Source: Alphaproteobacteria bacterium (lineage in GTDB: Bacteria; Pseudomonadota; Alphaproteobacteria; UBA828). Taken from it: a stretch of DNA of 64,000 nt. The translations under genes were made by a program, and so were the position numbers. The stretch spans positions 1 to 64,000 of the forward strand of contig WTGU01000152.1 in the NCBI GenBank assembly GCA_011523425.1. Direction: 5' to 3'. Positions 39,980-60,403 of the stretch are shown one piece after another (position 1 is the stretch's first letter; every line of letters starts with the position of its first letter). The notes under the pieces are model-generated. The model was not told the DNA's origin, did not search any database, and saw only the letters and a list, made by a program, of their open reading frames with translations.

Positions 39980-42154
39980 ATGGCGCGAGACCCCAAGTAC
40001 GACATCCTCTTCGAGCCCATCCGGTTCGGCCCGAAGACCATGAAGAACCGCTTCTACCAGGTGCCGCACTGCAACGGCGCGGGTTCGGAGCGGCCGGGTA
40101 CGCAAGCCGCGTTTCGGGGCATGAAGGCCGAGGGCGGCTGGGGCGGCGTCTGCACGGAGGCGTGCTCGATCGACCATGAGGCCGACACCTCGCCGGGCGT
40201 GCTGGCCTGTCTCTGGGACGACGGCGACATCATCAATCTGCGGCACATGTGCGACAGCCTGCACAAGTGGGATGCGCTCGCCGGCGTCGAGCTCTGGCAC
40301 ATGGGGTCCGCGTCGGCGAACCTGGAGACGCGGGCCGCGCCGTCGTCGCCCACGCAATCGACCTCGGACTGGTCGATCGGCACCTACTCGCACGAGCCCG
40401 ACGAGGACGAGATCGTCGAGCTTCAGGACATGTACGTCGAATCCGCGAAGCGGGCCGTGCAGGCCGGCTTCGACATCGTGTACGTCTACGGCTCGCACGG
40501 CGTCCTGCCGGTGCAGTTCCTCTCGCGCTTCTACAACAAGCGGACCGACAAGTACGGCGGGTCCTTCGAGAACCGCGCGCGCTTCTGGCTGGAGACCATC
40601 GAGAAGGTGAAGGGAGCTGTCGGCCACGAATGCGCGATCGCCGTGCGCATCTCGATCGACCAGATCATGGGGCCGGACGGCGTGCAGGCGGAAGACGACG
40701 GCATCGGCTTCATCGAGCTCGCCACCCGGCGCGGCCTGGTAGATCTCTGGGACGTGAACGTCTCGACGTTCAGCGAATGGGGCGAGGACGCCGGCCCGTC
40801 GCGCTTCTACAAGGTAAACCACCAGGCGCCGTTCACCAGGCACGTGAAGAGCGTCGCCAAGGTGCCGGTGATCAACGTCGGGCGCTTCACCAGCCCGGAC
40901 GACATGGTGCAGGTGATCAGCTCCGGTCAGGCGGACATCATCGGCGGCGCCCGCCCCTCGATTGCGGATCCCTTCCTGCCCCAGAAGATCGAGGAAGGAC
41001 GGCTCGAGGACATCCGCGAGTGCATCGGCTGCAACATCTGCATCTCGCGATGGGAGCGGGGCACGGCGCTGGTCTGCACGCAGAACCCGGTGGCCAACGA
41101 GGAGTATCGCCGCGGCTGGCACCCGGAGAAGTTCGATCACGTCGAGGACGCGGGATCGGTCCTCGTCGTCGGCGCGGGCCCTGCCGGGACCGAGTGCGCC
41201 CGTGTCCTGGGAGGCCGGGGCTACGACGTGCATGTCTGCGAGGCGGACTCCGAGATCGGCGGGCACGTCCGCGACGTCATGCGCTATCCCGGCATGGCGG
41301 AATGGGGCCGCATCACCAGCTACCGGCAGGCGCAGCTCGACAAGCTCAGGAACGTCGAGGTGCACACGAACGCCCGCCTCGGATCGGACGACGTGCTGAC
41401 CTACGGTGCCGACAAGGTGGTGCTCTGCACGGGCTCCCGCTGGGCGGCGGACGGCTTCAGCCACATCACGATGGCGCCGGTTCCGGGGATCGATGCGACC
41501 GCACCCCACTTCGCGACGCCCGAACAGGTCATGGCGGGCAAGGACGTCGGCGAGCGCGTCGTCATCCTCGATGCCGACGGCTACTTCACCGGCGTCAGCA
41601 TGGCGGAGATGCTGGCCGACCGGGGCAAGCAGGTGTCGATCGTCACCCAGTTCTCCGAAGCCGCGCCGCTGATGGAGTACACCCTGGAGGCGCCCAACCT
41701 GCATCGCATGCTGCACGAGAAGGGCATCGCCCAGTACGGCGGCACGTGGGTGGAGGAGTGCGATCCGGGCAACGTGGTGAAGGTGAAGCTCTTCAGCCTC
41801 TCACGCGACGGCTACAGGCGCACCGTCGAGCCCCGGCCCGGCGAGCACGTGCGCAAGATGGGCGAGGAGACCCAGACCATCGACGCCGACACCGTGATCC
41901 TGGTCACGGCGCGGCTCGCGAACAGCGAGCTCTACAAGTCGCTCTGGGAGCGTCGCGACAGGTGGGAGGACGAAGGGATCGCGGGCATCTACCAGGCCGG
42001 CGACTGCTACGCGCCGCGGCTGACCGGCGACGCCATCTTCGACGCGCACCGCCTCGCCCGGGAGTTCGAATCGGAGAATCCGCGGCGGCCGCAGCCCTTC
42101 CTCCGCGAGCGCATGATCTGGGGACGGGAGAACGCGTCCATGACCGCGAACTAG
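39980..42154 (+). CDS. Trimethylamine-dehydrogenase-like flavin/4Fe-4S amine dehydrogenase, paralogue P1
   Basis: A 724-residue TMADH-family enzyme: an old-yellow-enzyme barrel (about 1-390), a 4Fe-4S site (CIGCNIC then Cys in LVCTQN) and an ADP/NAD-type domain ([16 protein letters not shown]). Cys31 in YQVPHC matches the TMADH cysteine that holds FMN. The Tyr169-His172 pair (YGSH), Trp264/Asp267 (EWGED) and Trp355 (SRW) are conserved, but the Tyr60 position is Ala (CTEACSI). So it is a functional-looking dehydrogenase with a wider pocket than TMADH. AGGGAG precedes the ATG. Confidence 0.88.
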   Translation: MARDPKYDILFEPIRFGPKTMKNRFYQVPHCNGAGSERPGTQAAFRGMKAEGGWGGVCTEACSIDHEADTSPGVLACLWDDGDIINLRHMCDSLHKWDALAGVELWHMGSASANLETRAAPSSPTQSTSDWSIGTYSHEPDEDEIVELQDMYVESAKRAVQAGFDIVYVYGSHGVLPVQFLSRFYNKRTDKYGGSFENRARFWLETIEKVKGAVGHECAIAVRISIDQIMGPDGVQAEDDGIGFIELATRRGLVDLWDVNVSTFSEWGEDAGPSRFYKVNHQAPFTRHVKSVAKVPVINVGRFTSPDDMVQVISSGQADIIGGARPSIADPFLPQKIEEGRLEDIRECIGCNICISRWERGTALVCTQNPVANEEYRRGWHPEKFDHVEDAGSVLVVGAGPAGTECARVLGGRGYDVHVCEADSEIGGHVRDVMRYPGMAEWGRITSYRQAQLDKLRNVEVHTNARLGSDDVLTYGADKVVLCTGSRWAADGFSHITMAPVPGIDATAPHFATPEQVMAGKDVGERVVILDADGYFTGVSMAEMLADRGKQVSIVTQFSEAAPLMEYTLEAPNLHRMLHEKGIAQYGGTWVEECDPGNVVKVKLFSLSRDGYRRTVEPRPGEHVRKMGEETQTIDADTVILVTARLANSELYKSLWERRDRWEDEGIAGIYQAGDCYAPRLTGDAIFDAHRLAREFESENPRRPQPFLRERMIWGRENASMTAN

Positions 42155-42235
42155 CCGGGGTCGGTGTTTCGAGACAGGGTCGATCCGCGCACATGCCCTC
42201 GAACGCCACGCACCTCGGCGGCCATGAAGGTCAGG

Positions 42236-42254
42236 GGCCGGGCGCCGCCCGGCC
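42236..42254 (+). terminator. GC hairpin after paralogue P1
   Basis: GGCCGGGC (42236-42243), loop GCC, GCCCGGCC (42247-42254): an 8-bp perfect stem in the 205-bp gap before the ABC binding-protein gene. No T run. It could be a terminator or simply high GC content. Confidence 0.35.
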
Positions 42255-42359: not shown

Positions 42360-43640
42360 ATGAAAGCGAACATCACACGGCGTAAGTTTATGGCGGCAAC
42401 GGGGGGCGTTGCCGCAGGGCTGACCGCCTTCGGCGCGACGCCGTCCAGGGTCTTCGCCGGAGAGAAGACCGTCAAGATCGGCTTCCTTGCGGCGCTCACC
42501 GGCGATGCCGCGGGCTGGGGTCTTCCCGGACTCTACGGGGTCGAGATTTGGGCGGAGCAGATCAACGCCGCCGGCGGCCTCGACATGGGCGGCGAGAAGT
42601 ACATGGTCGAGATCATCTCCTATGACGACGAGTTCGACGCCGTCAAGGCGACGGTCGGCGCCAAGAAGCTGCTCTTCGAGGACGAGGTCTCGATCGTGCT
42701 GATGCTCGGCATCACGCCGGTGCAGGCGGTGAAGGACTTCATGACCCGCAACAAGATGCTGACCACGACGCTGGTGCCGACCGACATCAGCGAGGACGCG
42801 CCCTATCTCTTCGCGCCCGTCGAGGTCCATCCCTTCTACAACGTGACCGCCGTGGACTACATCGCGCGCAACATGCCGCACATCAAGACCGCGGCCATCG
42901 CGACGCAGAACGACGAGCTGGGCCTGAGCTCGCTCGCGACCTACCGGGCCGCGTTCGAGGTCGCCGGCATCGAGATCGTCGAAGAGAACCTGTTCGGCTT
43001 CGAGGTGACGGACTTCGCGCCGGTGGTGTCGAAACTGATCGCCGCCAATCCCGACGTGATCACCTGGGACACGGCCTATCCCGATTACGTCAACCTCCTG
43101 ACCGAGCAGGCCTACCTGCAGGGCTACAAGGGTCAGTTCGTGAACTGCACGCTCGACCAGTACGAGCACATCCTGAGCAAGACCAGCAAGGAGTTCCTGG
43201 AGGGATTCCTCTGGCAGTTCCCGGATCTCGACGACCCGATCATGCAGGGCGGCGGCACCCACTTCGACAACGCGGCCGCGTTCTACAAGACCTACGCCGA
43301 GCGCTATCCCGGCGCCTGGACGGCGGTCTCGTGGGAATATGCCGCAGCGCTCGAGATGTGGCGCGCAGCCGCGGCCAATGCCGGCACCTTCGATCCACCG
43401 GCGGTAGCTGACGCGCTCCGCGCGCTGAGCCCGGTGCCGCACGCGTTCGGCGACGCCGAATGGTGGGGCGAGGACTTTTTCGGCGTGAACAGCGCGGCGC
43501 TCGGCAAGTGGCCCGTCGTGCAGATGCAGAACGGCAAGGCCGTCATCGTCGAGATGGGCGATGTCAGGGCCTGGTGCGACCAGCATCTGGACGTTCTGAA
43601 GAAGCACTTCATCGAGCTCGGCGTTCCGCTCGCCGGCTAG
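42360..43640 (+). CDS. ABC transporter substrate-binding protein, branched-chain amino acid (LivK/Peripla_BP_6) type
   Basis: A 426-residue periplasmic receptor. A Tat signal (NITRRKFMAATGG) leads to VKIGFLAALTGDAAGWGLPGLYGVE-type N-terminal lobe (cited in part). Tat export suggests folding in the cytosol before secretion. CAGGAGGCCTAGCTCC precedes the ATG. These receptors also bind amides, betaine-like and aromatic compounds, so the ligand may be a substrate of the neighbouring amine enzymes. livH follows after an intercistronic hairpin. Confidence 0.88.
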   Translation: MKANITRRKFMAATGGVAAGLTAFGATPSRVFAGEKTVKIGFLAALTGDAAGWGLPGLYGVEIWAEQINAAGGLDMGGEKYMVEIISYDDEFDAVKATVGAKKLLFEDEVSIVLMLGITPVQAVKDFMTRNKMLTTTLVPTDISEDAPYLFAPVEVHPFYNVTAVDYIARNMPHIKTAAIATQNDELGLSSLATYRAAFEVAGIEIVEENLFGFEVTDFAPVVSKLIAANPDVITWDTAYPDYVNLLTEQAYLQGYKGQFVNCTLDQYEHILSKTSKEFLEGFLWQFPDLDDPIMQGGGTHFDNAAAFYKTYAERYPGAWTAVSWEYAAALEMWRAAAANAGTFDPPAVADALRALSPVPHAFGDAEWWGEDFFGVNSAALGKWPVVQMQNGKAVIVEMGDVRAWCDQHLDVLKKHFIELGVPLAG

Positions 43641-43655
43641 GCGAACCTCAGGCGG

Positions 43656-43679
43656 TGTGCCCCGCTCCGGCGGGGCACA
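43656..43679 (+). terminator. Perfect intercistronic hairpin between binding protein and permease
   Basis: TGTGCCCCGC (43656-43665), loop TCCG, GCGGGGCACA (43670-43679): a 10-bp perfect stem. It is located as in other transporter operons, where it stabilises or partly terminates the message so that the binding protein is made in excess. No T run. Confidence 0.65.
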
Positions 43680-43731
43680 TCCCTTCCTCTCACTTGCACT
43701 GACGATCGGCCGGAACGGGCCCTAGCGAGCC

Positions 43732-44616
43732 ATGACGGATCTGGAACTCATTCTTCAGACCATCATGAACTCGCTGATCGCCAGCAGCTTCACCGCGATC
43801 TTCGCGGTCGGCCTGGTGCTGATCTTCGGCATCATGCAGATCGTCAACTTCGCCCACGGCGCCCTCTACATGGTGGGCGCCTACGCGACCTGGTACCTCT
43901 ACGCCGAGCTCGGCATCCCCTTCTTCGCCTCGATCGTGATCGCGACGCTCCTGACGGTGGCGATCGGCCTCCTGATGGAACGCGCGCTGTTTCGCCCGAT
44001 GCGCGGCAACCTGTTCGGCGGCCTCATCGTCTCCGTCGGCATGATGTTCGTCCTCGAGGTTCTCGTCGTCTATCTGTTCGGCCAGGGGCTCATGAAGAAC
44101 ATGACGCCCTATTTCAGGGAATCGTGGCACGCCTTCGGGATCGAGAGCGTCACGATCTCCCACTCGCGGCTGTTCGTCTTCGCGATCGCGGCATTCATGC
44201 TGGTTGCCTTCTGGCTCTTCATGAGCCGCACCAGGATCGGCTGGGCCATGCGCGCCTGCGCCCAGAATCCGGAAGCGGCGGCGCTGCAGGGCATCGGCAT
44301 CGGCAAGATTTCCATGCTGGCGATGGTGATCAGCGCCGCGATGGCCGGCATGGGCGGCGCGGTCATGTCGCCGCTCGTGCGCATCACGCCGCAGATGGGC
44401 CATCCGGTGCTCGTCACCGCCTTCATCGTCATGATCGTCGGCGGCATGGGCAGCATCGAAGGCGCCCTGATCGCCGCCGTCGTCTACAGCTTCTTCCACA
44501 CCTTCGTCACCACCTACATCGGCGGCGAGATCGCGACCATCCTGGGTCTGGCGTTGATGCTGCTGGTGCTGATCGTCAAGCCGACCGGGATCATGGGAGC
44601 GCGCGAGAGTGTTTAG
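43732..44616 (+). CDS. livH: Branched-chain amino acid ABC transporter permease LivH type
   Basis: A 294-residue membrane permease of the BPD_transp_2 family with about eight hydrophobic segments and the motif MQIVNFAHGALYMVGAYATW, in which the NFAHG motif is typical. ACAQNPEAAALQGIGIGKI marks the cytoplasmic loop for the ATPases. It overlaps livM by 8 bp. The ATPases are not in this operon but at 46518-47988 on the other strand. Confidence 0.9.
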   Translation: MTDLELILQTIMNSLIASSFTAIFAVGLVLIFGIMQIVNFAHGALYMVGAYATWYLYAELGIPFFASIVIATLLTVAIGLLMERALFRPMRGNLFGGLIVSVGMMFVLEVLVVYLFGQGLMKNMTPYFRESWHAFGIESVTISHSRLFVFAIAAFMLVAFWLFMSRTRIGWAMRACAQNPEAAALQGIGIGKISMLAMVISAAMAGMGGAVMSPLVRITPQMGHPVLVTAFIVMIVGGMGSIEGALIAAVVYSFFHTFVTTYIGGEIATILGLALMLLVLIVKPTGIMGARESV

Positions 44617-45601
44617 CCGGACGCACCGCAATATCGCGGGGATCGCCGTCGTCCTGGCGGTCGTCTGCGTCCTGCCGCTCGTCCTGCGGCCCTATCAGCT
44701 CGATTTCCTCATATTCATGTTCATCAACATCATCCTGGTGGTGAGCTATCGATTCATCGCCATCACCGGCGAGTTCTCGCTGGCTCATGCCGTGATCATG
44801 GGCGTGGGCGCCTATGCGAGCGCGCTGCTCGCGGCGCTTCCCATCTCGCCGTGGATATCCATGCCGCTCGGCGGCCTGGCGGCGGCCGCCATCGCCTACA
44901 TTCTGAGCTTCCCGCTGTTCCGCATGAAGGGGTTCTACTTCCTCATCGGCTCCTTCGCCGCCGCCGAGGCGATCCGGCTCTGCTGGGTTCAGTTCATCGA
45001 TCCGTTCGGCGGGTTTCGCGGCCTGCGGCGCATCCCGGTGCTGGAAATCGATCTGGGGGAGTTCCTCTACATCGATCTCGGTGCTCCGGTGCCCTACTAC
45101 TTCTTCGCGATGATCGTGGGGCTGATCTGCCTCTTCGTCATGTACCGGATCGAGCATTCCCGCTACGGCTTCGTCTTCCACGCGGTGCACCACAAGGACA
45201 CGCTGGCGCAATCGGTGGGCGTCGACGTGCGCCGCTTCCGCACCGTCGCCTTCGTCACGGGCGGGTTCTTCGCGGGCATCGCGGGCGCCATGATCGCGCA
45301 CTACGTCACCGCGATTAATCCGGGCCTGTTCGGCCTGAAGCAGATGCTCTTCGTCCTGGTCTGGGTGCTGGTGGGCGGCATGGGCCACTTCGCGGGGCCG
45401 ATCATCGGCGTCGCAGTGCTGTCGATCATCGACGAATCCCTGCGCGGCCTGGACGAGCTGCGGCCCGGCTTCTACGGCCTGGTGCTGATCGCGACCGTGC
45501 TGTTCCTGCCCGACGGCCTGGTCAGCCTCCCCAGGAAAGTCGTGCAGTGGGCAACCTGGCTGTGGAACCGCGGAGGCGGCGGTCTCGTCAAGCGGGAGTA
45601 G
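44609..45601 (+). CDS. livM: Branched-chain amino acid ABC transporter permease LivM type
   Basis: A 330-residue permease with about nine hydrophobic segments. GEFSLAHAVIMGVGAYASA is the LivM counterpart of the LivH motif, and AVHHKDTLAQSVGVDVRR is the EAA-like cytoplasmic loop. The start GTG at 44609 overlaps livH. It converges on the TPR gene; a repeat copy lies between. Confidence 0.9.
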   Translation: MFSRTHRNIAGIAVVLAVVCVLPLVLRPYQLDFLIFMFINIILVVSYRFIAITGEFSLAHAVIMGVGAYASALLAALPISPWISMPLGGLAAAAIAYILSFPLFRMKGFYFLIGSFAAAEAIRLCWVQFIDPFGGFRGLRRIPVLEIDLGEFLYIDLGAPVPYYFFAMIVGLICLFVMYRIEHSRYGFVFHAVHHKDTLAQSVGVDVRRFRTVAFVTGGFFAGIAGAMIAHYVTAINPGLFGLKQMLFVLVWVLVGGMGHFAGPIIGVAVLSIIDESLRGLDELRPGFYGLVLIATVLFLPDGLVSLPRKVVQWATWLWNRGGGGLVKRE

Positions 45602-45608
45602 GGGCCTC

Positions 45609-45757
45609 TAGAGCGTATCCGTCTTTGACGGATACGCGACAGGCCGCGACTGCGGCCCGCCGCTCATGCGGCGCGCCCGCGCAGGCGCCGGCTGCAGGCC
45701 GGCTGCCGTGAGCGATAAAGAGTCTGGAGCGTTTCCGTGTAAAGCGGACACGCTCTA
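45609..45757 (+). repeat. Dispersed convergent-end repeat, copy 4
   Basis: A full 149-bp copy very close to copy 2 (21315-21463). The left hairpin is GCGTATCCG (45613-45621) with CGGATACGC (45629-45637), the core GCGACAGGCCGCGACTGCGG follows, and the right hairpin is AGCGTTTCCG...CGGACACGCT. It lies between convergent livM and the TPR gene; CTA at 45755-45757 is the TAG stop of the latter. Confidence 0.87.
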
Positions 45758-46483
45758 AGTTGCGACCCGGCGGCAGGGCGGCGCGAGGTAGACCGCCGCC
45801 GTCAGCTTTCGGGTATCGGTCATTTTCTTCCAGGGCTGCTTGCGGAAGTAGTCGATTCCGGCGTGGAACGGCTCGGCGTCGATCTCGCGTGCCCGGGCCC
45901 GCGGCTCCTTCGCCTCGCCCTGCCGCCCGGCGTCTTCCAGAAGGTCCGCCAGATTGTCGCAAATGATCGCCACCCCGGCCTCACGGTGGCTGAGGGACTT
46001 CTCCCGCATTTCGCGCGCACGGCGGTAAAGCGGCTCCGCTTCGTCGCCTCGTTCCGTCGTGTGCAGCAGCTCGGCGAGGTCGTTCAGAGCCGCGGCGAGG
46101 CCGCCCCTGGCAAGGGCGGCATTGATGCTGCGCTTGAGGGCGCGCAGTTCCTCCGTCCGCTTCATCTCGAGGCGGATGTGCATCGAGGCGCTGCGGGCGG
46201 TGAACTCGACGGCCATCAGCGCGACCCATTCGGGCACCCGCTCCCAGGCGGCGATGGCGTCGCGATAGCGCGCCTCGGCGTCCGTCATGTCGCCGGCCTC
46301 TCGGGCGATCGCGGCCAGGCAATGAAGGCTCGCCGCGCGGCGGGGGTCCGGCTCGTCGAATGCCTGGGTGAGCGTGGCGCCGGTTCGCCACAGTGCCGCG
46401 ACCTCGCCGCCGGTCCCCGAGCCATCGGCAGCCGCCTCGGCGAACTGCTCCCACAGGAAATCGACGAGCAAACAGGGCCGCAT
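45755..46483 (-). CDS. Tetratricopeptide-repeat-like protein of unknown function
   Basis: 242 residues, mostly helical with TPR-like repeats: GDMTDAEARYRDAIAAWERV, ARGGLAAALNDLAELLHTTERGDEAEPLYRRAREM (quoted in part) and AGVAIICDNLADLLEDAGRQGEA. No signal peptide or catalytic motif. It is 34 bp downstream of livF on the same strand and is probably in the ATPase operon; a link to transport is unproven. The stop codon is formed by the flanking repeat. The start is weakly supported. Confidence 0.65.
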   Translation of the reverse strand: MRPCLLVDFLWEQFAEAAADGSGTGGEVAALWRTGATLTQAFDEPDPRRAASLHCLAAIAREAGDMTDAEARYRDAIAAWERVPEWVALMAVEFTARSASMHIRLEMKRTEELRALKRSINAALARGGLAAALNDLAELLHTTERGDEAEPLYRRAREMREKSLSHREAGVAIICDNLADLLEDAGRQGEAKEPRARAREIDAEPFHAGIDYFRKQPWKKMTDTRKLTAAVYLAPPCRRVAT

Positions 46484-46517
46484 GGCGTCGAGGTCTGTCT
46501 AAGGTCGGCGCGGACGC

Positions 46518-47225
46518 TCAGGCCCCGAGATAGGCATGGCGAACGTGATCGTTCTCGTGCAGATCGTTCGCTTCGCCTTCGAGCGCGATGCGGCCGGTTT
46601 CCAGCACGTAGCCGTAGCTCGCGAGAGTGAGCGCCAGCTCGGCATTCTGCTCGACCAGGATCACCGGAACGCCCCGCGCGTTGATGTCGCGGATGATTCG
46701 CGCGACCTCCTGCACCATCACCGGCGAGAGCCCGAGCGACGGCTCGTCCATCAGGATCAGACGCGGGCCGGACATGAGCGCGCGGCCGATCGCGACCATC
46801 TGCTGCTCGCCGCCGCTGAGCGTCTTGGCTCGCTGATTGCGCCGCTCCTTGAGCACCGGAAAACGCTCGTGAACGTCTTCGAGGTCGCGCGCAATGCCCT
46901 GTCTGTCCTTGCGCAAATAGGCGCCGGTGTGAAGGTTCTGATTGACGCTCAGGTCGGGGAATACCTGCCGCCCCTCCGGCACGTGGGCGATGCCCATGCG
47001 GACGATCTTCTCCGGCGCCAGGCGGTCGATGCGCTGGCCGTCGAACCAGACGCTGCCCGTCGTCGCGCGCTTCAGCCCGGATATCGTGCGGAGGGTGGTG
47101 CTCTTGCCGGCGCCATTGGCGCCGATCAGGGTGATGATCTGGCCTTCGTCGATCGCGATCGAGATGTCCGAGACCGCCTGGACACTCCCGTAGTGGACGG
47201 TGACGTCCTTCACCTCAAGCAGCAT
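46518..47225 (-). CDS. livF: Branched-chain amino acid ABC transporter ATPase LivF type
   Basis: A 235-residue ABC ATPase: Walker A GANGAGKST, signature LSGGEQQMVAIGRAL, Walker B LILMDEPSLGLSP and switch His region VILVEQNAELAL. The EQNA motif after Walker B is LivF-like. It overlaps livG by 11 bp. It must pair with LivH/LivM encoded on the other strand at 43732-45601, or with a distant transporter. Confidence 0.9.
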   Translation of the reverse strand: MLLEVKDVTVHYGSVQAVSDISIAIDEGQIITLIGANGAGKSTTLRTISGLKRATTGSVWFDGQRIDRLAPEKIVRMGIAHVPEGRQVFPDLSVNQNLHTGAYLRKDRQGIARDLEDVHERFPVLKERRNQRAKTLSGGEQQMVAIGRALMSGPRLILMDEPSLGLSPVMVQEVARIIRDINARGVPVILVEQNAELALTLASYGYVLETGRIALEGEANDLHENDHVRHAYLGA

Positions 47226-47988
47226 TGAGGCCGGTTCCCAGATAGGCTTCGATGACGTCCTTGTTGTCCTTGATCTCGTCCGGCGCGCCTTCCATCAGCA
47301 GCTGACCGAAGTTGACCACAGTAATTCGCTCGCAGAGGCCCATCACCGCCTGCATGTCGTGCTCGACCAGCAAGATGGTGATGCCGCTCTCGCGCACCTT
47401 CTGGATCAACGCCATCATGTTGCGTGTCTCTTCCGGGTTCATTCCGGCGAAGGGCTCGTCCAGCAGCAGCAGCTTGGGCTCCGTCGTCAGAGCCACCGCG
47501 ATGCCGAGCGCACGCTGCAGGCCATGCGGCAGGTTGGAGGCGAGCTCGTCCCTGCGATCGGCCAGGCCAAGAAATTCCAGCACCTCGAGGGTCTTCGCAT
47601 CGCTGGCCCGCTCGCTCGCGCGCTGGGTGCCGAACAGCGCCGAGACCATGTTGCTCCGGGTGTGGAGATAGCACCCCATCAGGGCGTTCTCGAAGGTGGT
47701 GAACTCCCGGAAGAGCGTCGTCTCCTGGAAGGTGCGGACCAGTCCCTTGGCGGCCACCTGATGCGGCTGCAGGCCGCCGATGGATTCGCCCTGATAGAAG
47801 ACCTTCCCCGCGGTCGGCTTGTAGAAGCCGGTGATCACGTTGAAGACGGTGGTCTTTCCCGCCCCGTTCGGGCCGATGAGGCCGTGGATGGCTCCTTCCT
47901 TCAGCTCGAAGCTGAGCCCGTCGATGGCGGCCAGGCCACCGAACCTCTTTTGCAGGTTCTCGACCCTGAAAAACGCCTGATCGCTCAT
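47215..47988 (-). CDS. livG: Branched-chain amino acid ABC transporter ATPase LivG type
   Basis: A 257-residue ABC ATPase. Walker A is GPNGAGKTT, the signature is the LivG-like LPHGLQRALGIAVALTTEPK, Walker B is LLLLDEPFAGMNPEET, and ILLVEHDMQAVM follows. The ATG at 47988 starts MSDQAFFRVENLQ; the frame continues upstream into the divergent region and is not used. It precedes livF, with which it overlaps. Confidence 0.9.
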   Translation of the reverse strand: MSDQAFFRVENLQKRFGGLAAIDGLSFELKEGAIHGLIGPNGAGKTTVFNVITGFYKPTAGKVFYQGESIGGLQPHQVAAKGLVRTFQETTLFREFTTFENALMGCYLHTRSNMVSALFGTQRASERASDAKTLEVLEFLGLADRRDELASNLPHGLQRALGIAVALTTEPKLLLLDEPFAGMNPEETRNMMALIQKVRESGITILLVEHDMQAVMGLCERITVVNFGQLLMEGAPDEIKDNKDVIEAYLGTGLNAA

Positions 47989-49543: not shown

Positions 49544-49897
49544 ATGCCCGCACTTGTTCTGGAAAACGCCGCGGCGCTCGATCCCGCGACCTTCACCGAC
49601 TGGGGAGAGGTCGCCGCGCCGATCGGCGAGCCGGTCTCCCGAACGAGCGGCCTGCTCCTGTTCCGGAACGAGGACCGGTCGTCGGAGATGGGGCTCTGGC
49701 AATGCACGCCCGGGCGGTGGCGCTGCGAGGTCGAGAGCGACGAGTTCTTCCACGTGCTCGCCGGGCGCGCGGTCTACACGGAAGACGACGGCACGGTGAT
49801 CGACATTGCCGCCGGCATGACCTGCGCCTTCCCCGCCGGCTGGAAGGGCGCGTGCGAGGTCGTCGAGACCGTGCGCAAGGTCTACATGGTGCGCTAG
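49544..49897 (+). CDS. Cupin_3 (DUF861) domain protein
   Basis: A 117-residue single-domain cupin of the Cupin_3 type (FRNEDRSSEMGLWQCTPGRW, DEFFHVLAGRAVYTEDDG, GWKGACEVVETVRKVYMV). It lacks the H-x-H metal motif of classic cupins. Relatives bind small molecules or act in ureidoglycine-type chemistry. It begins 2 bp after the glycosyltransferase stop, so the two are coupled. It resembles the cupin at 57752-58132, notably in WQCTPG and the C-terminal ETVRKV. Confidence 0.8.
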   Translation: MPALVLENAAALDPATFTDWGEVAAPIGEPVSRTSGLLLFRNEDRSSEMGLWQCTPGRWRCEVESDEFFHVLAGRAVYTEDDGTVIDIAAGMTCAFPAGWKGACEVVETVRKVYMVR

Positions 49898-51205: not shown

Positions 51206-51244
51206 CGCCGCGCCCCTCTGTCGTCGCAGGAACCGCCGGCGATC

Positions 51245-51305
51245 TTAGCCCGCATTTCTCACCATGGTCATGGTCTGCGCGTCGCCGCAGACCGTGCGGC
51301 GACGC
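51245..51305. repeat. Solitary MITE-type repeat end with overlapping hairpins
   Basis: The end TTAGCCCGCATTTCTCACCA starts at 51245 and matches the 33478 element; no mate end is seen nearby. Within it GGTCTGCG (51272-51279) pairs with CGCAGACC (51286-51293), and GCGTCGCCGCA (51279-51289) pairs with TGCGGCGACGC (51295-51305). The two stems share bases and exclude each other. It lies 40-100 bp upstream of glycosyltransferase B and after the M41 gene, on whose strand it would be read. Confidence 0.6.
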
Positions 51306-52179: not shown

Positions 52180-53583
52180 GTGACGAAGATGTGGGGCGGC
52201 GAGCCCTATTTCGGCCTGTCCTATGAGTTCGATCCGCAATGGTATCTGACCGACGAGCAACGGGAGATACAGGCCCGCCTGATCGAGCTCTGCCACTCGA
52301 CGATCGCGCCGCACGCCATCGAGTGCGACCGCGACAGCATCTTTCCGCGCAAGAGCATGGAGGCGCTCGCCTCCCAGGATCTGCTTGCCCTTCACGTGCC
52401 GAAGAAATACGGCGGCATGGGGCAGAACCACGTCTGCGTGACCATGGTGCTGGAGACCATCGCCCGCTACGGCTGCGCCAGCACCGCGCTGGTCTACACC
52501 ATGCACCTGCTCGCGGTCAGCGCTCTCCTGCTCCGCGCGGGCGGCAATCCCGAGATCCAGAAGACCCTGCGGCGCCTGAACCGCGACGTCTTCGTCGGCA
52601 CCGCGTCCTACTCGGACCCCGAGACCGGCTCGCACTTCTGGTATCCGATGGCGTCGAAGGCCGAGAGGGTCGACGGCGGCTGGCGGGTCAACAAGAAGTC
52701 CTCGTGGACCACGTCGGGCGGGTTCGCGGACTTCTACGTGGCGCAGACCACCAGCCCGGACTTCGACGGTGATTTCTCCGACCTCTCCGTGTTCCTGATC
52801 TACGCGGACGAGATCGTCGCGCACCCGGCGAGCTGGGACGCGATGGGCATGCGCGGTAATCAGTCCGGGCCGATCGAGATCACGGACGTGGTGGTGCCGA
52901 CCGATCGCATGGTGGGCCCGCCCGGCGACGGCGCCCGCTCCAACGACGAGGGGCTGGACCCCATCGGCCTCCTGATGCTCGCCGCGTCGTACAACGGCCT
53001 CGGCATGGCCGCGATCGACCTCGCCAAGCGGCAGGCGACACGCAAGACCCATGCGGACGTCGGCATGCGCGTCTGCGACTATCCGAGCATTCAGGACTAT
53101 TTCGGCGATGCCATCATGGATACCCAGGCGTCGCGCGTCTACGCTTTCGCCGTCGCCCAGCAGATGGACGCGGTCACCAACAACTGCGACTGGACGATCC
53201 ACGAGGACGATCTCGACCTGCTGCCCCGCTCGGAGTTCCTGACCTGGAGCTGGAAGGCCAAGTACATCGCGAGCAAGTGCGTTTACACGGTCGCCGATCG
53301 CATGCTGAACGCGTGCGGCGGCACCGGCTACAAGAAGAGCCTCGTCATCGAGCGCGTGGTCCGGGACGCCAAGGCCGGCTGGATCATGGGGCCGACCAAC
53401 GAGGTGCTGCGCCAGTTCGTCGGCAAGTGGGCGCTGCTCGGCTTCGAGGCGCTGGACTACTGGAACCAGTCGGTCAACGAGCGCGCCATGAACAACGAGC
53501 TGAAGAAGCTCGACGACGACGCCAAGCGCGCCCTGATCGAGAGGCTCAGCGCCGAACTTGCCGAGGCGGACGCAGCCGAATAG
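52180..53583 (+). CDS. Acyl-CoA dehydrogenase family flavoprotein, catalytic Glu absent
   Basis: A 467-residue ACAD-fold protein (N-terminal helical, central beta, C-terminal helical domains), longer than the usual 380-400. FAD-site features include WTTSGGFADFYV and the C-terminal ACGGTGYKKSLVIERVVRDAKAGWIMGPTNEVLRQ (quoted in part). The catalytic Glu position of the normal YEGTSE is Met/Gly (WIMGPTNE), and the alternative IVD-type Glu position (LDLER) is Ile (LDPIG). It may be a flavin monooxygenase or other oxidase. The GTG start follows AGGGGG; a TAGAAT lies at 52127-52132. Confidence 0.78.
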   Translation: MTKMWGGEPYFGLSYEFDPQWYLTDEQREIQARLIELCHSTIAPHAIECDRDSIFPRKSMEALASQDLLALHVPKKYGGMGQNHVCVTMVLETIARYGCASTALVYTMHLLAVSALLLRAGGNPEIQKTLRRLNRDVFVGTASYSDPETGSHFWYPMASKAERVDGGWRVNKKSSWTTSGGFADFYVAQTTSPDFDGDFSDLSVFLIYADEIVAHPASWDAMGMRGNQSGPIEITDVVVPTDRMVGPPGDGARSNDEGLDPIGLLMLAASYNGLGMAAIDLAKRQATRKTHADVGMRVCDYPSIQDYFGDAIMDTQASRVYAFAVAQQMDAVTNNCDWTIHEDDLDLLPRSEFLTWSWKAKYIASKCVYTVADRMLNACGGTGYKKSLVIERVVRDAKAGWIMGPTNEVLRQFVGKWALLGFEALDYWNQSVNERAMNNELKKLDDDAKRALIERLSAELAEADAAE

Positions 53584-53607: not shown

Positions 53608-54036
53608 TTAGCGGTGAACGTCCTCGCTCTCGCCGAGCGCGCGAAAGCCGCCGCGGATGAACACCAGGAGCGTGGCACCGTCTTCCGAGACGGAGACGTG
53701 CTTCGAGCCGGGCTTCAGCGAGACGAAGTCGTCGCGCCGGTAGACCGTGCCGTCGCAATCGGTCAGCGACCCGTGGAGCACCAGGAACTCCTCGTGGCCG
53801 ATATGCTCGTGGGGCGTCGAGCCGGCCCCGGGCGCAAAGCGGACCAGGTAGCAGCCTTCGCCCGCGTCCGCGTCGTAGCTGATGTTGCAGTAGGTGGCGG
53901 TAGGGCAGACTGGCTGCTCCGCGTCCGCCGCGCGTTTCATGCGATGGGGCGGCTCGGCCCCGAAGGCCGCGGTCTCGACGTTCACGATCGTGCGATAGGA
54001 CGCGAGCGACGCGTCCCTCCGGGCCGTCTCCTGCAC
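53608..54036 (-). CDS. Cupin-domain protein (H-x-H type), operon end
   Basis: A 142-residue cupin_2-type protein. The metal motif is TPHEHIGHEEFLVLHGSL with downstream Gly and His in DDFVSLKPGSKHVSV. It is a close paralogue of the next gene, 9 bp away, and both share GSKH and VFIRGGF. Such small cupins often bind metals or act as dioxygenase-like or epimerase enzymes. It is the last gene in the six-gene minus-strand unit. Confidence 0.85.
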   Translation of the reverse strand: MQETARRDASLASYRTIVNVETAAFGAEPPHRMKRAADAEQPVCPTATYCNISYDADAGEGCYLVRFAPGAGSTPHEHIGHEEFLVLHGSLTDCDGTVYRRDDFVSLKPGSKHVSVSEDGATLLVFIRGGFRALGESEDVHR

Positions 54037-54045: not shown

Positions 54046-54429
54046 TCAGCCATCGACCGGCTCGTCCTGTTCCAGCGTGCGGAAGCCGCCGCGGATGAAG
54101 ACCGCGACCGTGCAGCCGGTGTGCGAGACCGAGAAGTGCTTGGAGCCGGGCTTGAGGGACACGAGGTCGTTCTTCCTGTAAATCGCGCCGTCGCAGTCCT
54201 CGATCTCGCCGTCGAGAACCAGGAACTCCTCGTAGCCGACATGCTCGTGAGGGATCGAGGTTCCGCCGGGCTTGAAGCGAATCAGGAAGCAGCCGCCGCC
54301 CTCCGCCTCGTCGTAGCTGACATTGCACCAGGTCAGGTCGGACTGCTCCGAGCCTTGCAACCCGTACGGAACGAACTCCGCCGTGTCGAGGTTGACCATG
54401 CGCCGTTGTGATTCGAGCGTTGTCGACAT
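54046..54429 (-). CDS. Cupin-domain protein (H-x-H type), paralogue
   Basis: A 127-residue cupin from ATG 54429 (AAGGCGAGACA upstream). Metal motif IPHEHVGYEEFLVLDGEIE and NDLVSLKPGSKHFSV. It resembles the 53608 gene throughout and arose by tandem duplication. The two start 390 bp apart with minimal spacing and are probably translated together. Its role in amine metabolism is unproven. Confidence 0.85.
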   Translation of the reverse strand: MSTTLESQRRMVNLDTAEFVPYGLQGSEQSDLTWCNVSYDEAEGGGCFLIRFKPGGTSIPHEHVGYEEFLVLDGEIEDCDGAIYRKNDLVSLKPGSKHFSVSHTGCTVAVFIRGGFRTLEQDEPVDG

Positions 54430-54559
54430 TGTCTCGCCTTCCCGTAATCGGCCCACGCACGGAAGCAGGGCGCGCCGTCACTCGCCGCGATCAGCTTACG
54501 CCGGCGCCGGACTCAGCGGCAAGACTCCGCCGTCCCTTGCGCCCGGATGCACGCTTGCG

Positions 54560-55462
54560 TCAGTGCTTGCTCGGCTCGCCGAGCGTCGCCGTCTTGAAGA
54601 CGTAGGTATCGTCGACATACTCGCCGCCTTCGGACGCAGCCGGCATGACGTCGCTGTAGCGATCCTCCAGCACGACATGAGGGCTGTGCCCCTCGACCCA
54701 TCCCAGGAAGAAGTCGTGCAGGTGATAGCCGATCAAGTGCTGCACGTCCTCGCGCAGGGTCTTCGCGACGGCCGGCGGGACCGCCAGATACTGGTTCTCC
54801 TCCTGGCGCAGCCATCCCAGGCTGTAGCCGGTGATCGCGCCGGTGCGCCACTCGTCCTCGGTATTGTTCCGGCCCCCGCCGTGATAGACCGAGCCCAGGT
54901 AGATCAGGCACGAGCCGCGCGGCATGACGGCGTAGGCCCGAGGCGTATCGTCGTCGGGGTAGGTGTCGTCGTCCCAGACGTGGCTGCCGAGAACCACGTT
55001 GGTGGCGCCGTTCTCGTAGGTGAAGTCGGTGAGCGCCCACATCGTGTTGCAGAGGCACTGCGGCCCGGGGTGGCGGAAGGGCATCAGGGCGTCGTCCCGG
55101 TGGATGATCTGCAGTCCCTGGCCGGGGGCGATCCGCACCGCCTGGGTGACGTGAAGGTGATAGCGCTCGCAGCGCGGCAGCAGCAGGCGATCCATCACGC
55201 CGAGGATCTGCGGGCACGCGGCGAGCTCCTCGCCGTAGGTCCTCGACTTCGCGACCAGGGAACTGACCCGCTTCGTCTTGTCGCCCCAGAACTCCCCCTC
55301 GCCGAAGTAGGCGCGCGACATGAAGGGCTCGAGCTCCGCGTTGACCCGGTCGACCACCTCGTCGTCGACGACCTGGCGGTAGATGACGGCACCGTCCTCC
55401 TCGAGGATCGCCATCGCTTCGTCGACCGACGCATGACGGTCGATTGAACGCACCGTGTCCAT
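54560..55462 (-). CDS. Phytanoyl-CoA dioxygenase (PhyH) family Fe(II)/2OG oxygenase, paralogue
   Basis: A 300-residue PhyH protein. The iron triad is H-x-D in IIHRDDALMPF and the distal His in SVYHGGGRNNT, with the Arg in DEWRTGA. It differs clearly from the PhyH at 38521, though both lie in amine-enzyme operons. GGAGGAGCAC precedes the ATG. It follows the TMADH-like gene by 66 bp, in which a degenerate repeat end lies. Confidence 0.83.
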   Translation of the reverse strand: MDTVRSIDRHASVDEAMAILEEDGAVIYRQVVDDEVVDRVNAELEPFMSRAYFGEGEFWGDKTKRVSSLVAKSRTYGEELAACPQILGVMDRLLLPRCERYHLHVTQAVRIAPGQGLQIIHRDDALMPFRHPGPQCLCNTMWALTDFTYENGATNVVLGSHVWDDDTYPDDDTPRAYAVMPRGSCLIYLGSVYHGGGRNNTEDEWRTGAITGYSLGWLRQEENQYLAVPPAVAKTLREDVQHLIGYHLHDFFLGWVEGHSPHVVLEDRYSDVMPAASEGGEYVDDTYVFKTATLGEPSKH

Positions 55463-55528: not shown

Positions 55529-57607
55529 TCAGGCGATGGCGCGCTCCAGTTGCACGTACTCCACCTTGTAGGGCACGTCGGCGACGGCGCCCGCGTCGAG
55601 CTCGCGGGCGAAGCGATGGCCCTCGTAGACCGCATGCTGGATCGTGCCGGCGGCGACGCAGTCGCCGATGCGCGCGAGCGTCGCGATGCCGGCCTGCTCC
55701 AGCTTCTCCGGCTCCGCCGCAAGCTCCCGGTAGAGCGCGTCGTTCGGCAGGCGCGAGGTGGCGAGCACGAGCGACTGATAGCCGAGATGCCGCCGCTTCT
55801 CCTCGTGATAGACGTTGTAGACCTCGATGCTGTTGTCGCCGATGTGGGCGATGTTGTGGTCGGTAATCAGCTCGATCCCCATGGAGAGGACCCGGCTCAT
55901 GATCTTCTCCATCTCGAGGGTATATTCCGACCAGCGCGAGAGCTCCATCAGCGGCGTGACGATGGTCACCTCGTGACCCGCGGCCCGGAGCTTCTCGGCG
56001 ATGACGCCGCCCATGTAGTAGTGATCGTCGTCGAACACCACGACCGGGCCTTCGAGCGCCTTCCCGTCCATCACGTCGTCCGGGGTGAAGACCTTCGTGC
56101 CGTCGCTCCCGGGGATGGCGTGGGCGTTGGTGTAGGCGACGCCGTCGCCGCGCCAGTGCGAGCCCGTCGCGATCACCACGGTCTCGGCGCCGTAGTCGAG
56201 CACGTCCTGCGCCGAGAGGCGCGCGCCCGTGTGCATCTCGCCGTTCTTCATCTTGGCAAGCTGGCCGACGCGGTAATCGCGCACGCGCCCCCACGCGGCG
56301 AGGCCCGGCAGCGCGCTCTCGCGTGACACGCGGCCGCCGACGTCCGCCTCCGCCTCGACGAGGTGAACCGTGTAGCCCCGCTGCCCGAGCGCCCGCGCGC
56401 ACTCCAGACCCGCCGGGCCGGCGCCGACGACGAGCACGCCGCTCTCCGATCCCTTCGCCTCGATCGTCTCCGGGTGCCAGCCGCGCCGCCACTCCTCGCC
56501 CGCGGTCGGGTTCTGCGTGCAGCGGAACAGGCTCACCGTGTTCTCCGAGGCCACGCACATGTTGCAGCCGATGCATTCGCGGATGTCGTCGTTCCGTCCC
56601 TCTTCGATCTTCCTGGGCAGGAAGGGATCGGCGATCGAGGGCCGCGCCGCGCCGATGAAGTCGGTGATGCCGCGATCGATCTGGGAGATCATCGTGTCCG
56701 GCGAGGTGTAGCGCCCCACCGTCACGACCGGCCTGTCGGTCTTCTGCTTGACGAAGGCGACGTAGGGCTCCTGGAAGGCCTCGTCGGTGAATCGCGACGT
56801 GGCGGAATCGTAGGCCCAGTCGCTGATGTTCACGTCCCAGAGGTCGGGCAGGTCGGAGAACATCTCGACCACCGCCTGGCCTTCCTCCTGCCAGGTGATG
56901 CCGTGCTCGCCCCGGTTCTCGTCGACCGCGAGCCTGAGCGCCACCGCAGCCCGGTCGCCGACCGCCTCCTTGGTGTCCTCCAGGAGCTCGCCGATCAGGC
57001 GGGCGCGGTTCTCGACGCTGCCGCCATACTCGTCGGTGCGGTGATTGGTGTGGGGGGAGAGGAAGTGCTGCGGCAGGGCGATGTCGTGTGCGGCATAGAC
57101 GTAGACGATGTCGTAGCCCACGTTGACAGCGCGCTTCGCCGCCTCGACCTGCCAGCGCCGGAACTCGCGGATGTCGGCCTTGTCCATCTCGCGGCCCATG
57201 ATCGGGTCCCAGTTGTAGTGCACCATGTTGGGCGAAGGCCCGAGCGGAAACTCCTTCGTCTTGCGGTTGGAGAAACCGAGCCCGTTGTGCACCAGCTCGA
57301 CGGCCGCAAGGGCACCGTATTCGTGCATGGTGTCCACCCAGCCGCGTAGCTGCTCCGCGTACTCGTCGTTCCACAGCCGGCGCTCGCCGTAGGGCGCGGC
57401 GCAGGAGCTCGGGTGGATGCTGCATTGCTCGGTGCAGATGACGGCCCAGCCGCCTTCGGCCTTCATGCGCCGATGCGCGACGTCGCCGTGGTGCTCGCCG
57501 TAGCCCATCGCGTTGCAGTGGGGCACCTGATAGAAGCGATTCTTGGCGATCTTCGGGCCGATCTTGATCGGCGTGAACAGGGTATCGTAACGGGGATCGC
57601 GGGCCAT
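55529..57607 (-). CDS. Trimethylamine/dimethylamine-dehydrogenase-like flavin/4Fe-4S amine dehydrogenase, paralogue P2
   Basis: A 692-residue family member. Cys31 (YQVPHC) is the FMN-linked Cys, YAAH holds the Tyr/His pair, and the cluster motif CIGCNMC...FRCTQN is intact. The Tyr60 position is Gln (CTEQCSI), the change I recall for dimethylamine dehydrogenase. The Trp264 loop is shortened by three residues (SDWAYD keeps Trp and Asp), and Trp355 is Glu (CVASEN). So its pocket differs from both TMADH and P1. AGGGAGGCAACG precedes the ATG. Confidence 0.87.
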   Translation of the reverse strand: MARDPRYDTLFTPIKIGPKIAKNRFYQVPHCNAMGYGEHHGDVAHRRMKAEGGWAVICTEQCSIHPSSCAAPYGERRLWNDEYAEQLRGWVDTMHEYGALAAVELVHNGLGFSNRKTKEFPLGPSPNMVHYNWDPIMGREMDKADIREFRRWQVEAAKRAVNVGYDIVYVYAAHDIALPQHFLSPHTNHRTDEYGGSVENRARLIGELLEDTKEAVGDRAAVALRLAVDENRGEHGITWQEEGQAVVEMFSDLPDLWDVNISDWAYDSATSRFTDEAFQEPYVAFVKQKTDRPVVTVGRYTSPDTMISQIDRGITDFIGAARPSIADPFLPRKIEEGRNDDIRECIGCNMCVASENTVSLFRCTQNPTAGEEWRRGWHPETIEAKGSESGVLVVGAGPAGLECARALGQRGYTVHLVEAEADVGGRVSRESALPGLAAWGRVRDYRVGQLAKMKNGEMHTGARLSAQDVLDYGAETVVIATGSHWRGDGVAYTNAHAIPGSDGTKVFTPDDVMDGKALEGPVVVFDDDHYYMGGVIAEKLRAAGHEVTIVTPLMELSRWSEYTLEMEKIMSRVLSMGIELITDHNIAHIGDNSIEVYNVYHEEKRRHLGYQSLVLATSRLPNDALYRELAAEPEKLEQAGIATLARIGDCVAAGTIQHAVYEGHRFARELDAGAVADVPYKVEYVQLERAIA

Positions 57608-57751: not shown

Positions 57752-58132
57752 CTAGGCGGCGAGCTGCTCGGCGTCGGGATCGTGAATGAAGAACACCTTG
57801 CGGACGGTCTCCTCGATCACCCAGGTCACCGTCTCGCCCTTGTTCGTGTAGAAGATGTCGCCGGCGGTGTAGGTGTGGGTGGTGCCGTCCTGCTCGGTCA
57901 CGTGGATCCTGCCCTGAAGCAGGGTGCAGATCTCGTCACCCGGATAGGTGTACTCGAACTTGCCCGGCGTGCACTGCCACACGCCTGCCATCGTGCGCAT
58001 GCCGAAGCCGCCGAGATCGAAACGCCCCTCGTGCACCGGGTTGCCGTCGAGCACGTTCACGAACGGCAGCTCCTCCAGCGGCGGCCACGGCTCCAGGCCG
58101 CCCTCGTCCTTCAACGTCACATAATCGAGCAT
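57752..58132 (-). CDS. Cupin_3-type protein
   Basis: A 126-residue single cupin similar to the one at 49544: GVWQCTPGKFEYTYPGDEIC, LLQGRIHVTEQDGTTHTY and IEETVRKVFFIHD. No H-x-H metal pair, so a ligand-binding or regulatory cupin. GGAGAGAGAGC precedes the ATG. It is sandwiched between the two TMADH-like genes, gaps 144 and 93 bp, in the same transcription direction. Its conservation with a glycosyltransferase-linked cupin suggests shared ligand chemistry. Confidence 0.82.
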   Translation of the reverse strand: MLDYVTLKDEGGLEPWPPLEELPFVNVLDGNPVHEGRFDLGGFGMRTMAGVWQCTPGKFEYTYPGDEICTLLQGRIHVTEQDGTTHTYTAGDIFYTNKGETVTWVIEETVRKVFFIHDPDAEQLAA

Positions 58133-58225
58133 GCTCTCTCTCCTCTCCTTCGTCGGCTCGTAAGCCGAGCCATCGTCGGCATCGCGGAAGACGCGTCTGC
58201 GCGATACTAGGACATTCCCGGGCGC

Positions 58226-60403
58226 TCAGGCGACCCGCTTGGGAAACGTCTCGTGTCCCCAGACCTGGCGCTCGCGGATCCACGGCAGCGGCTGCTGCGG
58301 GTCCGCCGATTCGAACTCGCGCGCGAGCCGGTGGCCGTCGAAGATGGCGTTGGCGACGATGCGCGGGGCGTGGCAGTCGCCGACCCGGTAGACTGCCTGG
58401 ATGCCCTGCCCGGCCCATTCTGCGCTGCGCGCCTTGACCTCGCGGAACACCCCGTCGTTGCTGAGCCGTGCCGTGCACAGGACGACACTGTCGCACTCGA
58501 GCTCGGTTACCTCGGTGCCGGCCCGGCGCGAATACTCGCCCTTCATCGGCGTCAACGTACGAACGTAGCCGTCCCGATAAAGGTAGAAGATCGTAAGCTT
58601 AACTGCATTGCCGATCTCAAGTTTGTCCGCCCAGTGCAGCGTATGTTGCTTGATGTTCTTCTCGTGCAACATGCGGCGAATATCGTGAATCTCCTCGGTA
58701 TAGATGCAGTGTGACGCGACATTGTCGAAGCTGGTCACGATGGTGACGTCCTTGCCTTGATCGGCGAGCAGCTCCGCCATGCTCACCCCGGTGTAATAGC
58801 CCTCGTAGTCGAGCACGACGACCCGCTCGCCGGTCTCCTTGCCGGCCATGATCTGCTCAGGCGTGCTGATCTCCGGCAGCGCCGCGTCGGCACCGTCGAG
58901 CGGGGCCATGGTCACGCCGCCGAGGCCGTTCGTCGACCACCGTGCACCGGTGGCGAAGACCACCTTGTCGGCGCCGTACTCCAGAACGCTGGCGGCGCTC
59001 ATCTCGCCGACGCCCGTGTGCACCTCGACGTTCTTGAGCTTGTCCAGCTGGCCCTGCCTGTAGCTGATGACGCGGCCCCATTCGGCCAGATGGGGGTAGC
59101 GCATGATGTCGCGCATGCAGCCGCCGATCTCGTCCGTCGCCTCGCGCAGATGGACGTCGTAGCCCCGCTCCCCCAGCACGCGCGCGCACTCCATGCCGGC
59201 AGGCCCGGCGCCGACCACGAGGACCGAGCAGGGATCCTCCGCCGGCTCGAACTTCTCCGGGTGCCAGCCGCGCCGGTACTCCTCCATCGACGTGGCGTTC
59301 TGCGTGCAGATGAGGGGCGTCGTCTGCCACCACTTGGAGAGGCAGATGTTGCAGCCGATGCACTCGCGGATGTCGTCGGTCCGCCCCTCGTCGATCTTGT
59401 TGGGCAGGAAGGGGTCGGCGATGGAGGGCCGCGCCGCGCCGATGAGGTCGGCCTGCCCGGACTTGACGATCTGCACCATCTCGTCGGGGCTGGTGACGCG
59501 GCCGGCGCTGACCACGGGCACGCTGCATGCCTTCTTGGCTTCCCTGATCCACGGCGCCATGTAGTTGGAGGCCGTGGAGCGCGATGCCGCGATTTCCAGC
59601 GCGAGCTCCGAGTAGCGGCCGACCTTCATGTCCCAGACGTCGCACAGGCCCTCCCTCTCGTGCAGCTCGATGAAGCCGATGCCGTCTTCCCAGACCTCGA
59701 GGCCGTCCGCCCCGTCCATGGTGTCGACCGAGTAGCGATAGCCCACCGCGCAGTCGTCGCCGACGGCCTTCTTGGTCGCTTCCGCGATTTCCAGTGCAAA
59801 ACGCGCGCGGTTTTCGAGCGAGCCGCCGTACTTGTCCGTCCTCTTGTTGTAGTAGGGCTGGAGGAACTGATTCACGATCATCGAATCCGAAACCAGGTTC
59901 TCGATGATGTCGAAGCCCGCATCGCGTGCCCTGATCGCGGCGTCGACGTGCATCCGGATGACGGTCCGGATGTCGTCCTCGTCCATCTCGCTGGTGCTCG
60001 CCAGGGGAATCGCCTCCGACGGCATCTGGCTCGGTGCGCGGCTGATCGCGCGGGACTCGCCGCTCTGAGAGTGCAGGCCGGCGTAATAGAGCTCGACGCC
60101 GGCGAGCGCGCCGTGCGCGTGGATGCTGTCGGTGAAGTGCCGCAGGCTGATGACGTCGCCCTCGTCCCAGAGACGCGCGGACCAGTGCGGTGAATCGTCC
60201 GATTCCGGGTGGATCGCGGTGTACTCGATGAAGACGGTGCCCCAGCCGCCTTCGGCCTTCATGCCGCGAAAGGCGGCCTGGGTGCCGGGACGGTCCGAGC
60301 CTGCGCTGTTGCAATGGGGCGTCTGCCAGAACCGGTTCTTCGTTGTCTTTGGGCCGACCTTGACCGACTCAAACAGAATGTCGTGTTCCGGGTTTCGCGC
60401 CAT
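58226..60403 (-). CDS. TMADH-like flavin/4Fe-4S enzyme with altered active site, paralogue P3
   Basis: A 725-residue family member with FMN-linking Cys31 (RFWQTPHC), the cluster motif ([13 protein letters not shown]) and the Rossmann domain ([16 protein letters not shown]). The Tyr60 position is Tyr (FIEYTAI) and Trp355 is kept (SKWW), but the Tyr169-His172 pair reads Leu and Asp (DIIENLVSD), and Trp264/Asp267 read Leu and Glu (SELALE). So it is not a canonical TMADH. AGGGGGA precedes the ATG. It is the first gene of the minus-strand unit. Confidence 0.87.

Follow-up and report, generated by a model that had tools for sequence, protein, structure and literature searches.

Three non-canonical trimethylamine dehydrogenase-family genes in a two-module, putative amine-catabolism island of an alphaproteobacterium

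Trimethylamine dehydrogenase (TMADH) has a flavin linked to Cys30, a 4Fe-4S cluster, a catalytic triad of Tyr169, His172 and Asp267, and an aromatic bowl formed by Tyr60, Trp264 and Trp355. It initiates the known route from trimethylamine through dimethylamine to methylamine, which a glutamine synthetase (GS)-type ligase converts into gamma-glutamylmethylamide; Puu and related operons represent another gamma-glutamylation pathway. The DNA analyzed here (the window, 64,000 nucleotides) comprises positions 1–64000 of contig C56 in the 3.62-Mb draft genome G000, whose host is probably a marine alphaproteobacterium and, to judge from isolate names, likely sponge-associated. An earlier note on this DNA had listed, as one amine-oxidation island, three TMADH-family genes, two GS-type ligases, two PhyH oxygenases, four cupins, an aldehyde dehydrogenase (ALDH), a Liv-type ATP-binding cassette (ABC) transporter, a dimethylglycine dehydrogenase (DMGDH)-like enzyme, a kinase and glycosyltransferases. 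Genes were assigned by Pfam/NCBIfam profile scans and codon-usage gene calls, which confirmed all these classes and counts. The region consists of two separable modules, A (35.66–54.46 kb) and B (54.56 kb to beyond the window end), and none of its three TMADH-family enzymes is a canonical TMADH as judged by active-site residues. The span first assigned to the island, 39980–60403, does contain the three TMADH-like genes, but the listed set extends outside it.

Active sites of the TMADH-family enzymes

TMD1 (39980–42154, + strand), TMD2 (55529–57607, −) and TMD3 (58226–60403, −) are all full-length and keep Cys30 and the cluster ligands Cys345, Cys348, Cys351 and Cys364 (TMADH numbering). The canonical set Y60 S74 W105 Y169 H172 Y174 W264 D267 W355 is complete in another gene of the same genome, on contig C65, and invariant in that gene's clade, one partial sequence of which lacks residue 60. 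At these nine positions, TMD1 has A L W Y H V W D W, TMD2 has Q E V Y H I W D E, and TMD3 has Y S Y L D M L E W. The aromatic bowl, whole in the C65 copy, is therefore broken by A60 in TMD1, by Q60 and E355 in TMD2, and by L264 in TMD3; the triad is kept in TMD1 and TMD2 and lost in TMD3 (L169/D172/E267). The original label of TMADH-like thus stands for family membership over the full length, but not for a canonical active site.

The changes in TMD1 (Tyr60 to Ala, Ser74 to Leu and Tyr174 to Val) are predicted to open the pocket, with the triad and the 4Fe-4S site intact, while the histamine-dehydrogenase-like pocket of TMD2 (Q60, E74, E355) suggests a different amine. In the phylogenetic tree, TMD1 belongs to an A60 clade with a support of 0.997, TMD3 belongs to a D172 clade with a support of 0.911, and the two clades group with the family's canonical TMADH (0.979); TMD2 falls in the histamine-dehydrogenase-like clade. 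TMD3 is not decaying, because its frame has no frameshift or stop and its dN/dS of 0.06–0.11 indicates strong purifying selection. An AlphaFold model of TMD3 was of low confidence (pLDDT 53) and was left unused. In a phylum-wide search with TMD3, the matches listed were from same-class genomes only, and the strict threshold left no further genome.

The host genome has six close TMADH-like genes, three of them within one 20-kb span of the window (p ~0.0015 under random placement), and genomes of this bacterial order have up to 10 strong TMADH-family matches. This probability, the conserved gene order in relatives and the purifying selection on all island genes with orthologs (dN/dS 0.01–0.32) indicate that the grouping did not arise by chance. 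TMADH has diversified into several pocket types within one order, and we found nothing direct in the open-access literature on TMADH pocket variants, on dgcA with TMADH, or on TMADH in sponge symbionts.

Two modules and their gene content

Relatives were compared by tblastn and gene maps; the compared genomes are drafts in which contig ends adjoin the modules, and G015, G017 and G020 belong to the window's own genus. Module A, in the order GSa-GSb-PhyH1-SnoaL-TMD1-SBP-LivH-LivM / TPR-LivF-LivG / GT1-cup1-GT2-M41-ACAD-cup2-cup3, is kept in G015 and in locus L021 (taken with contig C22 of G017), and partly in L023 and G016; in G016 it runs from GSa to cup1 without the SnoaL-like gene and the glycosyltransferases, followed by a thyX-like gene. 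In both G015 and G019, module B runs PhyH2-TMD2-cup4-TMD3-(FAD amine oxidase)-DMGDH-choline-kinase-like-hydrolase; PhyH2-TMD2-cup4-TMD3 is found in G017, and PhyH2 is separate from TMD2 in G016. Within-module order is kept at 80–100% identity, SnoaL, the glycosyltransferases and PhyH2 being variable. In a second genus (G008), one contig (C282, L097) carries GT1, cup1 and GT2 (84, 77 and 78% identical, respectively) beside a 65% TMD1 homolog, together with an ALDH, a GcvT-like protein and a fusion of an Fe-S protein with electron-transfer flavoprotein (ETF), and another (C208, L093) repeats TMD3-cup4-TMD2 at 81/71/86%. The modules lie on different contigs in G015 and G016, other genes come after cup3 in G015, and the GSa-GSb-PhyH1 triplet is present without TMADH in other alphaproteobacterial families, so that the single pathway envisaged earlier is not upheld. 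Scattering of the genes in relatives, which the earlier note had set as a refutation, was found between the modules but not within them.

GSa (35657–37018, +), a GS-fold ligase, is the partner of GSb (37033–38499, +), an amine-glutamate ligase of the gamma-glutamylmethylamide synthetase (GmaS) type. Among the catalytic and amine-site residues reported for RhGmaS (PMC7948447), Tyr147, Gln175, Asp177, Glu179, Glu186, Asn188, Arg312 and Trp300 are all retained in GSb on alignment to 7cql, including the test residues Asp177, Glu186 and Arg312. PhyH1 (38521–39390, +; PF05721) is an Fe(II)/2-oxoglutarate (2OG) oxygenase whose HQD, WHGSGDN and R motifs leave the HxD...H facial triad and the 2OG-binding Arg intact; the tailoring oxygenases SnoK and MysH are among its nearest solved structures. 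The GSa-GSb order is kept in L163–L167, L169 and L170, usually accompanied by a Pot/YdcS-type ABC transporter, and PhyH1 homologs adjoin GSb homologs in L163, L165–L167 and L202. More specifically, L163 and L166 have GSa-GSb, PhyH1 and the Pot/YdcS-type transporter without a close TMADH; L164 has GSa-GSb and the transporter, with PhyH1 not nearby; L165 has the triplet with PhyH2 and distant old yellow enzyme-type flavoenzymes; L167 has the triplet; and L202 has GSb-PhyH1-ABC. The GSa-GSb pair also occurs on plasmids, in Ruegeria (L170) beside genes for a P450, a ferredoxin, an ABC transporter and a glutamine amidotransferase, and in Paracoccus sp. TOH (L169) beside ALDH and PuuD-like gamma-glutamyl hydrolase genes; PhyH1 was not found on the plasmids searched. 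Clusters of GmaS-like and N-methylglutamate (NMG)-synthase-like genes in L200 and L203 each include a PhyH1 homolog. We found no description of the conserved GSa-GSb-PhyH unit in the open-access literature.

Module A joins this triplet to a TMADH-type cassette of TMD1, the Liv importer and a tetratricopeptide repeat (TPR) protein (45755–46483, −). All five subunits of the Liv/HAAT importer are present (42360–47988): the substrate-binding protein (SBP; 42360–43640, +), LivH-type (43732–44616, +) and LivM-type (44609–45601, +) permeases, and LivF-type (46518–47225, −) and LivG-type (47215–47988, −) ATPases; it scores under every substrate-specific equivalog cutoff, so that the assignment goes no further than the transporter class. 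SBP-Liv-TPR accompanies canonical TMADH in L074 and L083, as SBP-Liv does on the short contig C65, and SBP and TPR homologs lie upstream of Paracoccus aminovorans TMADH (L115); the TPR homologs in L074, L083 and L115 are 33–37% identical. The TPR protein thus recurs beside TMADH/Liv cassettes as far as P. aminovorans (L115, 8254–8943). The canonical TMADH on C65 has Liv genes and a GcvT-like protein, and on C47, as in most relatives, a GmaS-like ligase (57% identical to GSb) adjoins NMG-synthase-like genes. The window copies are therefore taken to be extra, specialised paralogs, and with their changed pockets they probably do not serve the plain route from trimethylamine to methylamine, in line with the earlier note.

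Among the remaining module A genes, a SnoaL-like small protein (39491–39814, +; 26.5 bits, under the 27-bit cutoff), absent in G016, has a true start that is possibly an internal ATG. The MGT/UGT-type GT1 (48252–49541, +; NCBIfam MGT) and MGT-type GT2 (49922–51205, −) are accessory, and flank the EutQ-like cupin cup1 (49544–49897, +). They are followed by an M41-peptidase-like protein (51325–51996, −), an acyl-CoA-dehydrogenase-like flavoprotein (52180–53583, +) and two ChrR-like cupins, cup2 (53608–54036, −) and its duplicate cup3 (54046–54456, −; 74% DNA identity), the right end of the module. In module B, PhyH2 (54560–55462, −; PF05721) is an Fe(II)/2OG oxygenase with an intact HxD...H triad and 2OG-binding Arg (HRD, YHGGGRNN, R), and the EutQ-like cup4 (57752–58132, −) lies between TMD2 and TMD3. 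A FAD amine-oxidase gene, intact in G015, G016 and G019, is truncated here to its first 40 residues (60647–60766, +; 82.5% identical) and adjoins a dispersed repeat also present at 45627–45692. The DMGDH-like FAD/GcvT enzyme (60918–63365, +) is followed by a choline-kinase/APH-like kinase (63362–64000, +; family c16 in L059) that continues past the window end; an open reading frame at 63332–63973 (−) was rejected as its shadow.

The earlier note had counted the ALDH and the glycosyltransferases among the possible pathway parts. The SSADH-type ALDH (33906–35411, +; NF008415, 831.6 bits against a cutoff of 828) is a flank outside module A, because it does not adjoin GSa in G016, G017 and L023, where it is absent upstream; of GT1, only a partial remnant is left in G015 and nothing in G016. 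At the left island edge, outside the pathway, lies an unstranded element (33477–33750) with 34-nt inverted ends, resembling a miniature inverted-repeat transposable element (MITE). The repeat, with ends TAGCCCGCATTTCTCACC, is represented at 33477–33750 and 51244–51290, and its ends have 34 genome matches at ≤1 mismatch, versus 0 for a reversed control; several are inverted pairs ~250 bp apart, and two further 273-nt copies are >91% identical, placing the element in a repeat family. GC content is 66.4% in 35.6–60.4 kb versus 71.0% in 1–33.8 kb, and a tRNA was the sole match of an Rfam scan. An Mrr-type restriction endonuclease gene at 30942–31841, with an unusually low third-position GC of 0.68, is likely foreign.

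Near-identical module A contigs (L021, L023), with TMD1 homologs at 93–96%, occur in metagenome-assembled genomes labelled Bryobacterales and Deltaproteobacteria. These are probably mis-binned rather than transferred across phyla, because contig C22 of G017 ends in PhyH1 and L021 starts in SnoaL, both in the same sample series. A third TMADH-type cluster (L064, L078) has a TMD2-like gene, Rieske oxygenase alpha and beta genes and a Pot-type ABC transporter; it adjoins module A in G015 and PhyH2 in G016.

Proposed route and competing explanations

Gene content, residues and synteny support amine catabolism, as first proposed. Our best reading is that the substrate would be a larger methylated amine, handled by uptake, N-demethylation, gamma-glutamylation and Fe(II)/2OG-dependent oxidation. 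The Liv-type transporter would bring in the methylated amine, and TMD1 would oxidatively N-demethylate it, with release of formaldehyde and passage of electrons to ETF. GSb, possibly with GSa, would couple glutamate to the amine nitrogen, PhyH1 would oxidize the glutamylated amine, and a glutamyl hydrolase encoded elsewhere in the genome could complete the route in trans. Module B may be a second set (TMD2, TMD3, PhyH2 and the DMGDH-like enzyme) that handles a related substrate, either an amine or an alkylammonium compound, and in which the DMGDH-like enzyme would transfer the C1 unit to folate. The substrate and the order of steps, like the roles of the cupins, the TPR protein, GSa and the glycosyltransferases, are what we infer from sequence, which supports the amine route but does not name the undescribed substituted amine suggested earlier.

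We regard the case for a composite two-module amine-catabolism island with this route as evenly balanced. It is favored because the A60 clade groups with canonical TMADH and module A shares its Liv/TPR cassette with the canonical TMADH clusters L083 and L074; because GSb has GmaS residues, GSa and GSb are partners elsewhere, and a PhyH1 homolog lies in GmaS/NMG-synthase-like clusters; and because a formaldehyde-activating GFA homolog is near a TMD1-like gene (L066), selection is purifying, and C26-type glutamyl hydrolase candidates are encoded on C92 and C123. Several points weigh against it: module A contains neither a glutamyl hydrolase nor NMG synthase genes linked to GSb, the GSa-GSb-TMD1 junction is seen in one genus only, PhyH1 homologs also occur without nearby GS ligases (L194–L199, L201), and gene boundaries come partly from a home-made codon-usage caller. 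Two of these PhyH1 homologs (L194, L195; 46–47%) are in AT-rich genomes of ~1.4 Mb.

Module A could instead be the dimethylamine-to-methylamine leg of ordinary methylamine degradation, with TMD1 as a dimethylamine dehydrogenase acting after the C65 TMADH and GSb as a second GmaS. The nesting of TMD1 with the family's TMADH, the GmaS residues of GSb, and an importer and TPR protein paralogous to those of the TMADH cluster would fit; however, C47 already has a GmaS-like ligase with NMG-synthase-like genes, and PhyH1 and GSa are left unexplained, which makes this explanation unlikely. The dimethylamine dehydrogenase of Hyphomicrobium presumably has Gln60/Thr74, unlike A60/L74 of TMD1. Less likely still is a polyamine-type route in which GSa-GSb-PhyH1 would gamma-glutamylate a polyamine-like amine and TMD1 is merely placed alongside. 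It agrees with the Pot/YdcS-type transporters that follow the homologous triplets and pairs and with the gamma-glutamyl hydrolases on plasmids, but module A has no Pot-type transporter, and in the window's genus TMD1 and the Liv importer follow the triplet in all sufficiently long instances.

That the genes are unrelated, fortuitous neighbors in a rearranging island would accord with separable modules, nearby repeats and the lower GC, but is improbable given the within-module order and the repetition of TMD3-cup4-TMD2 and GT1-cup1-GT2 in a second genus. Slightly more improbable is the tailoring of a secondary metabolite by the MGT-type glycosyltransferases, SnoaL, PhyH and cupins, which the MGT matches and the likeness of PhyH1 to SnoK and MysH would suggest, but which is opposed by an importer, the loss of GT1 in G015 and G016 with the rest retained, and no polyketide synthase, nonribosomal peptide synthetase or other scaffold enzyme among the annotated island genes.

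More tentatively than the composite island, we propose for module A an undescribed pathway in which TMADH-type N-demethylation, two-ligase gamma-glutamylation and Fe(II)/2OG oxidation would act on a bulky N-methylated amine, and suggest that TMD3 stands for a TMADH-derived clade whose catalytic chemistry has changed (His172 to Asp, triad lost). Its parts are known singly; the combination and its food molecule would be new. If so, the range of known methylated-amine substrates would widen, a triad-less flavoenzyme would become available for testing, and genes of this kind in marine metagenomes should be annotated as TMADH or gmaS markers only with caution.

Comparison with known systems

In the TMADH clusters of P. 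aminovorans (L115) and Azoarcus KH32C (L114), genes for an aminomethyltransferase, an Fe-S protein and ETF accompany a TMADH-like gene, and L115 shares SBP and TPR homologs with the window; unlike the window, these clusters have a canonical active site and neither GSa-GSb nor PhyH. Puu-type systems have in common with module A a GS-type ligase, an oxidase or oxygenase, a cupin and an ABC importer, whereas module A has a TMADH-type dehydrogenase, a Liv rather than a Pot importer, and no hydrolase of its own. TMD1, TMD3 and TMD2 are 52, 50 and 44% identical, respectively, to Methylophilus TMADH (PDB 1djn/2tmd) and have the same full-length fold, Cys30 flavin link and 4Fe-4S cysteines, but TMD1 is without Tyr60, TMD2 has Gln60/Glu355, and TMD3 is without the triad and Trp264. 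The best solved match of TMD2 is histamine dehydrogenase (PDB 3k30, 6de6), with which it shares Gln60, Glu74, Tyr169 and His172, while it has Glu at position 355, where histamine dehydrogenase has Asp. Compared with GmaS (PMC7948447), GSb has the same residues at the catalytic and amine-site positions examined, but its partners are another ligase, GSa, and PhyH1, and no NMG synthase genes adjoin it.

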